This document shows, one piece after another, positions 49,924 through 54,292 of a stretch of DNA of 64,000 bases. Below the pieces are notes generated by a model. The model saw nothing but the letters and a program-made list of their open reading frames with translations, had not been told where the DNA came from and did no database searches. Source of the stretch: Kosakonia oryzae (GTDB lineage Bacteria; Pseudomonadota; Gammaproteobacteria; Enterobacterales; Enterobacteriaceae); assembly GCF_001658025.2 (NCBI RefSeq), contig NZ_CP014007.2:4836001-4900000 (forward strand). Reading direction: 5' to 3'. The translations under genes and the position numbers were made by a program. Numbering within the stretch: the first letter of the stretch is position 1; each line of letters starts with the position of its first letter.

Positions 49924-50706
49924 CTAACTTAAGTGCCGTTTTGCCTCCAGCCGTACGCGATGCAGCACGTGCTGCTTGATCTCACCATAGTGCGGATCGC
50001 CAGCGAGGGTTTCGATATCGCGATCGCGGCCAAACGGCAGAGAAATCTCTTCGACGATTTTGCCGGGGCGCGCAGACATGATCAGAATGCGGTCGGCGAG
50101 AAACAGCGCTTCATCTACATCGTGCGTCACGAACAGCAGCGTGGTGCGCGTTTCCAGCCAGGCGCTGCGCAGCAGTTCCTGCATCATCAGCCGGGTTTGC
50201 GCGTCCAGCGCACCAAACGGTTCATCGAGCAGCAACACATCCGGACCGGGCAACCAGGCGCGCGCCAGCGCGACACGTTGTTTCATGCCGCCGGAAAGCT
50301 GCCACGGCGCATGGTGTTCAAAACCTTTCAGCCCCACTCGGGCCAGCCAGTCCAGCGCCTGGGCGTTAATCTCTTCTTTGCGGTATTTGCCGAGCCGTGG
50401 GCCGAACGTCACGTTATCCAGCACCGATAACCACGGAAACAGGTTCGGCTGCTGGAAGATCATGCCGCGCGATGGGCCTGGTTGGCTCACCGTTTTTCCG
50501 GCCGCCAGAACCTGCCCGCTATCGGGCCGGGTAAACCCGGCAACCAGGTTGAGAATGGTGGATTTACCACAGCCGGAGGGGCCAAGCAGCACAACAAATT
50601 CCCCCGGAGCCAGCGCCAGCGAAATATCTTCCAGCACCGTGAACGGTTGCGGTTTTGCCGCAAACGTCAGCGAAACATTTTCCAGCGCGATTTGTGCCGT
50701 CATCAC
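49924..50706 (-). CDS. ABC transporter ATP-binding protein, sulfonate/taurine type
   Basis: This 260-residue ATPase is of the TauB/SsuB class. Walker A GPSGCGKST (about 43-51), signature LSGGMKQRVALARA, Walker B VLLLDEPFGALD and the switch histidine in TLLFVTHDVDEAL are all intact. It is the last gene of the cassette and overlaps the permease by 4 bases. The following rlmB has its own TATAAT box but no clear terminator intervenes. Import of a sulfonate or sulfonate-like acid is inferred from the binding protein. Confidence 0.92.
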   Translation of the reverse strand: MMTAQIALENVSLTFAAKPQPFTVLEDISLALAPGEFVVLLGPSGCGKSTILNLVAGFTRPDSGQVLAAGKTVSQPGPSRGMIFQQPNLFPWLSVLDNVTFGPRLGKYRKEEINAQALDWLARVGLKGFEHHAPWQLSGGMKQRVALARAWLPGPDVLLLDEPFGALDAQTRLMMQELLRSAWLETRTTLLFVTHDVDEALFLADRILIMSARPGKIVEEISLPFGRDRDIETLAGDPHYGEIKQHVLHRVRLEAKRHLS

Positions 50707-51473
50707 TCTTTCCCCGCCCAGGGCACCAACCAGCGTTGTAGCCCTAACAGTAATAAATCCAGTAAGTAACCAATGCCGCCCAGCAGCAGAATGCCAAGCA
50801 TGACAATGTCCGTACGTAAATAAGAGCTGGCGTTGATCACCATCCAGCCGAGGCCGGAACTGGCGGCGACCATTTCGGCGGCGATCAGCGATGTCCAGCC
50901 AATGCCAATGGAAAGACGCACTGTGGTGAACAGCTCTGGCAGCGCATCCGGCAGCACCACGCGCAAAAAAATCTGCCCTTTCGATGCGCCCAGCGTTTGC
51001 GCGACGCGAATGCGTGCGCGACCGATGCGTTCCACCGCCGCGCTGGCACCAACGACCACGCTTAAAAAGGTAGCGATAAAGATCAGGAAGAATTTCGACG
51101 CTTCGCCAATCCCCAGCCAGACCACCGCCAGCGGGATCAGCGCAATCTTCGGTAGCGGGCGCAGGAACTGCACAAACGGGTTAAGCACAGCGGAAAGTCC
51201 ATCGGATAAGCCCATCAGCAAACCCAGCGGGATCCCGATGGCAATCGCCACTGCAAAGGCGCTCAGCGCCCGCGCCAGGCTGACGGCGACGTGCTGCCAC
51301 AGCGGCACCTGGCGGTAACCGTCCGCCAGCAACTCTTCGGCGGTCAGCCCAATGTCGGTCAGCGAAGGTAACAACAGCGGATCCACCCATTGCCGGGTGG
51401 CCGCCACTTGCCAAATCACAAAGAAGACCGCCACCGACAGCACGCTGATGACGATATGTTGACGCAGTTTCAT
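50703..51473 (-). CDS. ABC transporter permease, sulfonate/taurine type
   Basis: The 256-residue permease has about six membrane segments and the EAA loop typical of TauC/SsuC (VERIGRARIRVAQTLGASKGQIFLRVVLPDALPELFTTVR, about 145-185). It overlaps both neighbours by 4 bases, so transporter subunits are co-translated. It resembles TauC in length (E. coli 275) with a shorter N-terminus. Confidence 0.92.
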   Translation of the reverse strand: MKLRQHIVISVLSVAVFFVIWQVAATRQWVDPLLLPSLTDIGLTAEELLADGYRQVPLWQHVAVSLARALSAFAVAIAIGIPLGLLMGLSDGLSAVLNPFVQFLRPLPKIALIPLAVVWLGIGEASKFFLIFIATFLSVVVGASAAVERIGRARIRVAQTLGASKGQIFLRVVLPDALPELFTTVRLSIGIGWTSLIAAEMVAASSGLGWMVINASSYLRTDIVMLGILLLGGIGYLLDLLLLGLQRWLVPWAGKE

Positions 51474-52530: not shown

Positions 52531-53283
52531 TTATTTATTCGAATTATTGCGTTGGATATGCGTGGAATAAGAATGGTGATAATCGAGCCATATTTGCGCG
52601 CACTGCTGCGCCAGCGCTTGTGACGGATCGCAGGTCTGCGCGAGAAATGGTGCGGCAATCGCTTCCAGCGCAACCGGTACTTCGGTACAAGCCAGAATCA
52701 ACTGTTGCGCACCGCGCGCCAGTAACGCCTTTGCCTGCTTTGCCAGCAATTCACCGCCCTCGTGCAGTGCGCCGCGCTTCACGGCATAACAGCCCGGCAC
52801 AAACCACTGTTGCAGTTCATCGTCATTCGGCAGCAGTACCTCAATTCCCTGTTGCGCCAGGCGCTGCTGATACCAACCCGCATCCAGCGTGCCTTGCGTG
52901 GCAATCAACCCAACTCGCTGAGGTTTGTGAGCTAAATTCGCCAGCGACGCCATTGTGGCATCCACAATGTGCAACAGCGGCGCGTTGCTGGCGCGGCTGA
53001 GTTCGTCATACCAGTGATGCGCGGTGTTGCAGGGAATAGCGATATGGCTGGCGCCCGCCTGATTAAGCTTTTCAATTCCCTGAAGCAGTTGAGGCAGCGG
53101 CGAAGGCCCCAGCCCGGCCAGCGCTTTTTGCCGATCGGCGATTTGCGGCACGTTCCACACCACCGACGGCAGTTGCTGCTGGTCGCTATCGGCAGGCGTC
53201 GCCTGTAACAGCTTGTGCTGAAAATCGAGCGTGGCGAGCGGCCCCATGCCGCCCAGCACGCCCAGTAAGAAGGGTTTAGCCAT
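52531..53283 (-). CDS. Aspartate/glutamate racemase family protein
   Basis: The 250-residue enzyme is of the cofactor-independent Asp/Glu racemase family. The two catalytic cysteines are visible: C85 in IPCNTAHHW and C199 in [10 protein letters not shown]; the N-terminus [12 protein letters not shown] is the usual substrate loop. It would interconvert L- and D-amino acids with acidic side chains. The start at 53283 overlaps the upstream PLP gene by 8 bases, so the two are coupled. The frame open to 53367 is the shadow of that overlap. In this setting cysteate (sulfo-aspartate) is a reasonable substrate guess. Confidence 0.9.
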
Positions 53284-54292
53284 GGCGGGCGTGCGCCTCC
53301 AGCACCTGGCGGTAACCGAATAGCCCGGCAGAGCCGCCGGTGTGGATAAACACGACATTCTCGTCATGCGTGAAGTAGCCTTTGCGAATCAGATCAATAA
53401 GCCCGGCGGCACCTTTACCGGAATAGACCGGGTCGAGCAAAATGCCTTCATGGCGGGCAAACAGCGTCAGCGCTTCCAGCATGCCTTCTGTCGGCAAACC
53501 ATAGCCATCACCCACGTAGTCGCTATTGGCGGCTACCGCTTCACGCGGCAGATCGCCCGTCACGCCCAACAGTTCGCGCGTACGTGACGCCAGATTCCAG
53601 ACATTCTCTTCCTGCTTCGCTTTAGGCGCGCGGACGCTGATGCCCAGCACCGGCACGTGGCTGTTAGTGGCAGTGAAACCGGCCACCAGCCCGGCTTGCG
53701 TCCCGGTGCTGCCAGTAGCGTGAACGACATGATCGATGCGTAGCCGTAACTGTGAGGACTGGAATAACAGTTCTTCTGCGCAAGCAACGTAACCCAGCGC
53801 GCCGATGGCGTTGGAGCCGCCACCGGGGATGACATACGGGCGATGCCCCTGTTCGCGCAGCTGTTCGGCATACTCTTCCATCGCTTTTTGCATATCCGTG
53901 CCGCCCGGCAGATGGGCGACAATTTCACCGCCCAGCAACTCATCCAGCAGTATGTTGCCAGAGCGCTGATAATCTTCACCAAAATCGGTAACGCGTTTTT
54001 CCAGAAGCACTTTGCTTGCCAGCCCGAGTTTCGCAGCCCCGGCAATGGTTTGCCGGACGTGGTTCGACTGCGTTGCGCCCTGGGTAATAATGACGTCTGC
54101 GTTTTTCGCCAGCGCATCCGCCAGCAAAAATTCCAGCTTGCGGGTTTTATTGCCGCCCGTCGCCAGACCGGTAGCGTCATCGCGTTTGATCCATATTTTG
54201 GGACCGCCCAGCAACGCACTTAAATTCTCCAGTGGTTCTAACGGCGTCGGGAAATGACCTAATGACAGGCGGGGGAAACGGGCCAGATGCAT
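53276..54292 (-). CDS. PLP-dependent D-cysteine desulfhydrase / L-cysteate sulfo-lyase family enzyme
   Basis: The 338-residue fold-type II PLP enzyme belongs to the ACC-deaminase-related family that includes DcyD and CuyA. The Schiff-base lysine is K49 in [13 protein letters not shown], the next active-site segment is QSNHVRQ (S76-N77-H78), and PLP phosphate is held by the glycine loop TGSTGTQAG. DcyD converts D-cysteine to pyruvate, sulfide and ammonia; CuyA converts L-cysteate to pyruvate, sulfite and ammonia. By eye the text around K49 ([16 protein letters not shown]) and [17 protein letters not shown] stretches fit my memory of CuyA better than E. coli DcyD (RDDVTPMAMGGNKLRK). It heads the cassette. 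Confidence 0.88.

Follow-up and report, generated by a model that had tools for sequence, protein, structure and literature searches.

The degradation of cysteate by a racemase and a lyase has been described before. According to passages of a 2024 paper (PMC11382572), in which Denger 2009 and Liu 2024 are cited for the CuyA/CuyB pathway, CuyB interconverts L- and D-cysteate, after which CuyA, an enzyme that favours D-cysteate, carries out the desulfonation to pyruvate, ammonia, and sulfite; an activity of CuyA on D-cysteine as well is reported in a passage of PMC10507020. NCBIfam holds curated families for both enzymes (equivalog NF052482 "D-cysteate sulfo-lyase" for CuyA and NF052483 "cysteate racemase" for CuyB). 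The original prediction for a five-gene cassette of Kosakonia oryzae knew of no described pathway that pairs such a racemase with such a lyase; since the pathway is known from NCBIfam and from the passages of PMC11382572, this pairing is not new, and with both enzymes belonging to a described pathway the cassette is mainly a well-supported further case.

Layout of the cassette and its flanks

The window (the whole stretch of K. oryzae DNA that was analysed, 64,000 nucleotides) contains, as had been claimed, five genuine open reading frames on the minus strand between rlmB (49090-49881) and rnr (54478-56964). The features considered were:

49924..50703, minus strand, TauB-like ABC ATPase (PRK11248, 255 bits, cut-off 357)
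50703..51473, minus strand, TauC-like ABC permease (PRK10160, 222 bits, cut-off 342)
51470..52474, minus strand, TauA-like periplasmic binding protein, predicted to bind cysteate (closest solved structure TauA 6ssy)
52475..52530, minus strand, gap of 56 bases between cuyB and the binding protein gene, with a G+C-rich hairpin, not terminator-like
52531..53283, minus strand, cuyB, predicted cysteate racemase of the Asp/Glu racemase family (250 aa, C85 and C199)
53276..54292, minus strand, cuyA, predicted PLP-dependent D-cysteate sulfo-lyase (338 aa, Schiff-base lysine K49)
54370..54397, minus strand, promoter-like block (TTAGCC-N16-TATAGT) preceding cuyA, a candidate for a promoter that depends on an activator
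54445..54470, minus strand, hairpin resembling an intrinsic terminator, following rnr and setting it apart from the cuy operon

The overlaps of 4-8 bases ascribed to all genes were found only in part: the lyase and racemase genes overlap by 8 bases and the binding protein and permease genes by 4, the racemase and binding protein genes are separated by the 56-base gap, and permease and ATPase overlap by 1 or 4 bases depending on the start of the ATPase gene (ATG 50703 or GTG 50706). All predicted motifs and residues are present: the PLP enzyme has K49 within GGNKTRK, the racemase has C85 and C199, and the binding protein has SSPATA (residue 82) and WKRGDIDAGYVWAP (residue 167). A looser form of the promoter-like pattern occurs in 28 of the 43 cuyA upstream stretches, the window included (with exact spacing in 22), compared to a mean of 1.3 and a maximum of 5 in single-base shuffles, a comparison in which the 43 sequences are related to each other; the block was not picked up by a sigma-70 scan. 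The hairpin after rnr was the single hit of the terminator scan (mean of 0.2 in shuffles), and the hairpin in the 56-base gap was rejected as a terminator, as it does not resemble one and its stability is not significant (fold z-score -0.97).

The cassette had been described as inserted into, and interrupting, the junction of rnr and rlmB, which are indeed neighbours in E. coli (179 bases apart in one E. coli record). Among 15 congeneric genomes, the K. oryzae genome included, cuyA, cuyB, and the binding protein gene were found together in seven. Two of the eight cassette-less congeners (G006 and G008) carry decayed remnants between rnr and rlmB, which indicates loss in these two; in four others (G004, G012, G013, and G014) rnr lies near rlmB with no recognisable remnants, and G010 and G011 were left out of this comparison because rnr was outside the stretch. 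At least two congeners thus look like cases of loss, not of insertion, and given these remnants the idea of an insertion into an ancestral junction was dropped for this genus.

The lyase resembles CuyA

The PLP enzyme reached 556 bits in the CuyA model (cut-off 450), about the same as the characterised CuyA of Ruegeria pomeroyi (553 bits), while the DcyD of E. coli (405 bits) and that of the K. oryzae genome itself (403 bits) failed it. The racemase reached 271 bits in the CuyB model (cut-off 190), and E-values of 1.8e-167 and 1.3e-80 put the two family matches far outside what chance would give. As these cut-offs are passed, with R. pomeroyi CuyA scoring alike and the DcyDs failing, cysteate as the substrate is very probably right. 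The main alternative is a D-cysteine operon, in which the PLP enzyme would act as a desulfhydrase on D-cysteine, the racemase would make this substrate from L-cysteine, and the importer would take up a cysteine-related compound. It could draw on the conserved fold and catalytic residues (equivalents of StDCyD K51, Y287, Y261, and S78 are kept), on the annotation as D-cysteine desulfhydrase of most of the best plasmid homologues among the matches listed, and on the nearest solved homologue (7ysk, 79.7% identical), which is presumably from Pectobacterium and was deposited under that same name. The 7ysk protein itself passes the CuyA cut-off (557 bits), and a narrow literature search found no paper on this structure.

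Several observations speak against D-cysteine. The window enzyme stays below all three DcyD equivalog cut-offs (316/429, 290/469, and 284/610 bits), a second gene elsewhere in the same genome is a true DcyD (704 bits), and the window enzyme is 59.2% identical to R. pomeroyi CuyA vs. 47.7% to E. coli DcyD. T and G occupy StDCyD positions 52 and 158 in this enzyme, as in all 46 CuyA-type rows, while the three DcyDs have L and V there; T at position 52 is also seen in an ACC deaminase. When the enzyme was placed in a tree with DcyD and CuyA, as had been proposed, it grouped with R. pomeroyi CuyA under LG+G4 (support 100/100), and both alternatives were rejected, i.e., R. pomeroyi CuyA tied to DcyD (p-AU 0.00115) and the window type tied to DcyD without R. 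pomeroyi (p-AU 0.0145). In a quick mixture-model tree, which has long branches, the two were still grouped (97/91), but the alternative topology was not rejected (p-AU 0.135). The D. deserti homologue scores above the CuyA cut-off (535 bits) and shares T and G at positions 52/158, yet it branches beside DcyD, so the tree does not unite all CuyA-model proteins. Finally, the importer of the cassette is of the sulfonate type, whereas E. coli dcyD sits among cystine transporter genes, and one relative has CuyA next to an HpsN relative (G057, see below). On balance, we consider a D-cysteine operon unlikely and prefer cysteate.

The importer

A TauABC-type importer had been claimed, and this holds for the importer architecture and for part of the pocket, not for membership of the Tau families. 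The closest solved structure of the binding protein is TauA (6ssy, E 1.4e-33), and the TauA residues G61, G79, E106, T132, and W176, of the sulfonate and amine pocket, are kept; all three subunits missed the Tau equivalog cut-offs (TauA 178/304, TauB 255/357, and TauC 222/342 bits). Two polar positions of the TauA pocket are changed: where TauA has Q30, S stands in the K. oryzae protein and in 32 of 35 rows, and in place of D205 all 35 rows have N.

The retained pocket letters, together with the fact that this is the best TauA-like protein of the genome, could also fit an importer for taurine, or for sulfonates in general, that stands in for the missing TauABC and with which cuyAB are merely co-transcribed, a reading compatible with a cysteate role of cuyAB. 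The failed Tau cut-offs and the two substitutions argue against it, as does the genome: TauD gave no PF02668 match at E 0.001 (the E. coli control was positive), and Xsc was not found over its cut-off, a result without a positive control as the 14 control genomes had none either. Moreover, among 58 genomes the binding protein (E up to 1e-60) was found in nine and was beside cuyAB in all nine. This reading is given little credence, and the predicted ligand of the TauABC-like importer is cysteate.

The racemase and the occurrence of the cassette in relatives

Racemases of the Asp/Glu family are cofactor-independent and use two cysteines, each of which (C85 and C199) is kept in 80 of 81 aligned rows. 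CuyA passed its cut-off in 11 of the 58 genomes, all 11 of which also have a CuyB above its own, and the cassette is present at many Enterobacterales loci. A CuyA gene adjoins the CuyB-type gene at 47 of 80 loci and was not seen adjacent at the other 33; this importer was not seen near 14 of these 47 pairs, and at one locus, L069, the importer and CuyB occur with no CuyA within the stretch examined. Genome G057 has CuyA and CuyB within a single run of genes that also includes a TRAP importer, a DegT-family aminotransferase, and an HpsN relative, whose best match among solved structures is sulfopropanediol 3-dehydrogenase (8v35, E 3.7e-157). A LysR gene cluster adjoins cuyAB at 4 of the 80 loci, and the one member that was scanned (L065) scores 551 bits in the Cbl model, above the cut-off of 491. 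In RNA-seq data of a Phytobacter diazotrophicus aldB knockout, as given in a passage of PMC12648084, cuyA (0.082), racD (0.08), tauA (0.36), tauC (0.38), and ssuA (0.421) drop together with tcyB, fliY, and metQ. This co-variation, the Cbl-model gene in relatives, and the conserved promoter-like block were considered with regard to a possible Cbl/CysB sulfur-starvation regulon. A literature query on cysteate use by enterobacteria found nothing.

At 13 of the 80 related loci, among them one in a congener (L170), a peptidase-like amidohydrolase (M20 type, related to Xaa-Arg dipeptidase) and a peptide-type importer (Opp/Gsi-type) come after the cassette. This extension sits outside the window and is the freshest lead of the analysis.

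In 3 of 14 genomes, racemases pass the CuyB model with no CuyA over the cut-off in the genome, which could suit an Asp/Glu racemase paired with a promiscuous lyase for some other beta-substituted D-amino acid (D-serine or beta-chloro-D-alanine, the latter a StDCyD substrate according to a passage of PMC3344862), the sulfonate link being incidental. Against the sulfonate-type importers, the HpsN relative, and the Cbl-model regulator that adjoin cuyAB in relatives, we find this improbable. An ACC deaminase degrading 1-aminocyclopropane-1-carboxylate for plant growth promotion would suit the plant-associated genus Kosakonia, and the superfamily is shared, but the enzyme reaches only 247 of the 392 bits required and has S/T/H where ACC deaminases have E/L/Q (StDCyD positions 288/315/80), so that this role is hardly credible. 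Family cut-offs, the separate DcyD, the lack of a TauD match and of an Xsc over its cut-off, active-site letters, and the tree thus placed all three roles (D-cysteine breakdown, taurine import, and ACC deaminase) below cysteate.

A predicted route for cysteate

Judged from its sequence, the cassette is likely a cysteate-scavenging operon with a TauABC-like importer, CuyB, and CuyA, a prediction supported by the curated family cut-offs, the grouping with R. pomeroyi CuyA, the active-site letters, and the gene context. The importer would carry cysteate (3-sulfoalanine) over the inner membrane, and CuyB, by its family-level assignment, would interconvert the L- and D-forms. The fold-type II PLP enzyme CuyA would form an aldimine with D-cysteate, the tyrosine equivalent to StDCyD Tyr287 would take the alpha proton, sulfite would be eliminated, and hydrolysis of the aminoacrylate would yield pyruvate and ammonium, a mechanism modelled by analogy on StDCyD as presented in passages of PMC3344862. 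If the sulfite feeds cysteine synthesis, the operon would supply sulfur, and possibly nitrogen, under sulfur limitation. Cysteate as the common substrate of racemase and lyase therefore stands from the original prediction, and its choice of L-cysteate for the lyase probably does not: the preferred form reported in the passages of PMC11382572 is D-cysteate, which CuyB probably supplies to the window enzyme.

A wider enterobacterial route, undescribed so far, is possible, though we lean against it: an ABC importer dedicated to cysteate, which would be a new specificity in the TauA family, might feed CuyB and CuyA, and in the long form the Opp/Gsi-type importer and the M20 amidohydrolase might yield cysteate from peptides or N-acyl-cysteate, by which sulfur would be recovered from oxidised proteins or conjugates. 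The CuyA/CuyB pair, in the literature consulted mostly a matter of marine and soil sulfonate degraders, is found in many Enterobacterales with an ABC importer of its own, and a cysteate system can consist of genes labelled taurine transporter, amino acid racemase, and D-cysteine desulfhydrase. What results is a corrected annotation, with no new enzymatic principle.

Comparison with known systems

With the CuyA/CuyB pathway the window cassette shares the same two enzyme families at curated cut-offs; it differs by its TauABC-type importer and by having no sulfolactate or DHPS oxidation genes, and in contrast to that pathway its role is probably sulfur assimilation, not carbon supply. The CuyA of the R. 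pomeroyi DSS-3 locus (NC_006569) is 59% identical and falls in the same group, but in the 19 kb read there a TRAP-type importer adjoins CuyA, which has no annotated racemase next to it. DcyD (Salmonella 4d8t and E. coli dcyD) has the fold, the PLP lysine, and the catalytic tyrosine in common with the window enzyme, and differs in identity (47-48%), in positions 52/158, and in being present as a separate gene in this genome. TauABCD shares the importer architecture and parts of the sulfonate/amine pocket, whereas the window importer lies below the Tau cut-offs, has two polar pocket residues changed, and comes with no TauD match. The nearest solved homologue, PDB 7ysk, agrees in the CuyA model and differs in the name given by its depositors.

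Cassette organization and genomic context

In the window, the cassette is flanked by rnr and rlmB, and the source genome is a single contig of 5.4 Mb. The ORFs confirmed the five minus-strand genes of the original prediction:

53276-54292, minus strand, PLP enzyme cuyA (ORF call and family match)
52531-53283, minus strand, racemase cuyB (ORF call and family match)
51470-52474, minus strand, binding protein of the ABC importer (ORF call)
50703-51473, minus strand, permease of the ABC importer (ORF call)
49924-50703, minus strand, ATPase of the ABC importer (ORF call)

K49 of the PLP enzyme, C85 and C199 of the racemase and the two binding-protein motifs were all present as claimed. 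Overlaps of 4-8 bases had been described between all five genes; starting from cuyA, the first two genes overlap by 8 bases, the next two are 56 bases apart, and the last two junctions overlap by 4 and by 1 or 4 bases, so the description is right only in part. A scan of genome contigs returned 129 relatives, the best 80 of which were analyzed as loci; among these, Kosakonia sacchari was the closest named locus, with rlmB and all five proteins of the cassette 97-100% identical.

The cassette was also thought to be inserted between rnr and rlmB. These genes do adjoin in E. coli (179 bases apart in one record), where a search at megablast sensitivity found 80% of the cassette in none of 20,395 records. 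Within the genus, however, the cassette is found in 7 of 15 genomes, source genome counted, and two of the 8 cassette-less genomes carry pieces of both cassette ends (G006) or the end of the ATPase gene (G008). Because these remnants persist between rnr and rlmB, the cassette appears to have been present and then decayed in both. The decayed cuy pieces of these two members of the genus lie at:

L130, 2287-2576
L135, 1219-1437

Assignment of the PLP enzyme

The PLP enzyme passed the NCBIfam CuyA (D-cysteate sulfo-lyase) model with 556 bits (cut-off 450) and remained under the cut-offs of three D-cysteine desulfhydrase equivalogs. The same model gave 553 bits for Ruegeria pomeroyi CuyA, 405 for E. 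coli DcyD and 403 for the separate DcyD of the source genome. The R. pomeroyi sequence was taken from the megaplasmid, where the record itself labels the gene D-cysteine desulfhydrase; from the organism and the neighbourhood, we take it to be the characterized CuyA. An ACC deaminase identity was rejected (score under the NCBIfam cut-off). Among solved structures 7ysk is the nearest; its depositors called it a D-cysteine desulfhydrase, but it scores 557 bits with the CuyA model, and the name given to 7ysk/7ysl probably reflects misnaming or dual activity.

In a 55-row tree, the window enzyme and R. pomeroyi CuyA grouped together, apart from DcyD (support 97/91, with a bootstrap not fully settled). 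With the LG+G4 model (54 rows, L105 dropped), support for the CuyA group was 100/100. AU tests rejected a tie between R. pomeroyi CuyA and DcyD (p 0.00115), and likewise a tie that joins the window type, but not R. pomeroyi, to DcyD (p 0.0145). A quick mixture-model tree containing long branches (53 rows; 1j0a and L105 dropped) did not reject the R. pomeroyi CuyA-DcyD tie (p 0.135), and the Deinococcus deserti homologue, although passing the CuyA model (535 bits), formed a long branch beside DcyD, which counts against a perfectly clean CuyA/DcyD split. Three CuyA sequences stayed outside the trees (L054 and L086, too short; L067, ORF overlap).

The catalytic StDCyD residues K51, Q77, S78, H80, Y261, Y287 and T315, with roles taken from part of PMC3344862, are conserved. 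T52 and G158 (StDCyD numbering) occur in 46/46 CuyA-type rows (window, 44 loci and R. pomeroyi; L105 excluded), and three DcyDs have L and V there; T52 is not unique to the CuyA type, as one ACC deaminase shares it.

The Zymomonas mobilis plasmid pZZM402 carries a CuyA-CuyB pair on an alphaproteobacterial replicon (L126, 2347-4063). Since this CuyA is 76.5% identical to that of the window and sits among Enterobacterales in the tree, the pair was likely acquired by horizontal transfer.

Breadth of the racemase family

The racemase passed the NCBIfam CuyB (cysteate racemase) model (271 bits, cut-off 190), and C85 and C199 were each found in 80 of 81 aligned rows. The model is broad: it was passed in 14 of 58 genomes, 11 with and three without a CuyA over cut-off, and it may include other amino acid racemases. 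Among the best 80 of 129 loci, CuyA adjoins CuyB in 47 (L067 included); the remaining 33 hold more distant racemases (36-59% identity), some at contig ends. The racemases of L074, L092 and L096 (246, 243 and 238 bits) have no adjoining CuyA and lie near genes of clusters 26 and 27. On D. deserti plasmid 3 (L127, 6001-9001), a CuyA-model protein (535 bits) accompanies a CuyB-model racemase (271 bits), directly followed by a gene annotated carboxylate--amine ligase.

Gene neighbourhoods in relatives

Among the best 80 of 129 loci, nine have the window arrangement, rnr-[cuyA cuyB importer]-rlmB, and in 12 the same five genes come after rnr and lead into an M20 amidohydrolase and an Opp/Gsi-type importer; L048 is a 13th long-form locus, located away from rnr. 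The additional genes owe their identification to a single representative of each (L036), and to L170, scanned against family models:

L036, 11343-16696, long-form operon
L170, 2916-9329, long-form operon

Within the genus, the long operon was found in G001 (L170), and G001 alone among 58 genomes had the amidohydrolase at E up to 1e-80. Its closest solved relatives are HmrA (3ram) and Xaa-Arg dipeptidase. The long form suggests that the cell takes up N-acyl-cysteate or peptides containing cysteate.

In 12 other loci of the best 80 of 129, cuyAB has an SsuA-like binding protein (cluster 15) nearby. Ten of these 12 also carry an Ldh_2-family dehydrogenase (cluster 16); L055 has this dehydrogenase but lacks the binding protein. 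In the representative L051, the dehydrogenase passed the malate/lactate/ureidoglycolate dehydrogenase model and not that of L-sulfolactate dehydrogenase (188 of 500 bits), and the binding protein fell short of the SsuA-family cut-off (69 of 163.5). A LysR gene belonging to one cluster occurs at L063, L065, L066 and L106 (four of the best 80 of 129 loci); the sole scanned member, from L065, scored 551 bits with the Cbl equivalog and so passed its cut-off of 491.

In G057, a single run (L169, with CuyA beginning just before it) comprises CuyA, an HpsN relative, a DegT-family aminotransferase, a TRAP importer and CuyB. The HpsN relative is a histidinol dehydrogenase by NCBIfam and Pfam and matches sulfopropanediol 3-dehydrogenase in PDB. 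This composition suggests a DHPS-to-cysteate type cluster, and the aminotransferase suggests itself as a candidate for the sulfopyruvate aminotransferase of R. pomeroyi, termed unknown in a passage of PMC11382572.

Regulation

A terminator-like hairpin lies 3' of rnr, and upstream of cuyA we found:

54397-54370, minus strand, block TTAGCC-N16-TATAGT

Of 43 stretches upstream of cuyA, 28 contain a looser form of this pattern, and 22 share its spacing; 300 single-base shuffles, which ignore the relatedness of the sequences, gave 1.3 matches on average and never more than 5. The block fits a candidate activator-dependent promoter.

A Phytobacter diazotrophicus strain in the contig collection (L032) has the short form, i.e., cuyAB with the three importer genes. 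In RNA-seq of an aldB knockout of this species, cuyA, racD, tauA, tauC, ssuA, tcyB, fliY, metQ and an amidohydrolase were all down, in a section that does not discuss sulfur (PMC12648084). We read this joint fall as sulfur-regulon behaviour, in a strain that may differ from L032; racD, tauA and tauC of the table may correspond to the cassette genes.

Importer and relation to known cysteate pathways

TauA is the closest solved relative of the binding protein, and the importer stayed under every cut-off of three NCBIfam Tau equivalogs. Compared with the taurine pocket described in part of PMC6906117, equivalents of TauA G61, G79, E106, T132 and W176 are conserved, whereas the window has S in place of Q30 (as in 32 of 35 rows), D205 is N in 35/35 rows and an alanine is replaced by an arginine at 109, invariant in the 35 rows, which we would guess to be a carboxylate ligand. 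The source genome gave no match to TauD and none over cut-off to TauA or, in a search run without a positive control, Xsc. Nine of 58 genomes carry the binding protein (E up to 1e-60), beside cuyAB every time, and it lies near 33 of the 47 CuyA-CuyB pairs in the best 80 of 129 loci (absent near 14); L069 has the importer and CuyB with no CuyA within the stretch examined. From the pocket differences, the lack of TauD, TauA and Xsc matches and the association with cuyAB, we infer cysteate as the likeliest ligand.

Literature searches on CuyB, named in one of 30 papers listed, and on cysteate uptake, mentioned in two papers (one on R. pomeroyi), turned up neither a TauABC-like importer for cysteate nor the long operon with amidohydrolase and Opp/Gsi-type importer. 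The combination of racemase and lyase, originally thought undescribed, is already described, since passages of PMC11382572 (citing Denger 2009 and Liu 2024) state that CuyB interconverts L- and D-cysteate and that CuyA prefers D-cysteate, yielding pyruvate, ammonia and sulfite; that paper terms the R. pomeroyi gene for CuyB unknown, and parts of PMC10507020 and PMC6278857 give the substrate as cysteate or L-cysteate. A cysteate transporter of R. pomeroyi is experimentally verified according to a passage of PMC8027193, and is presumably the TRAP importer located near its cuyA. The cassette is most likely a further member of this known cysteate pathway, and the specificity of its importer is a prediction.
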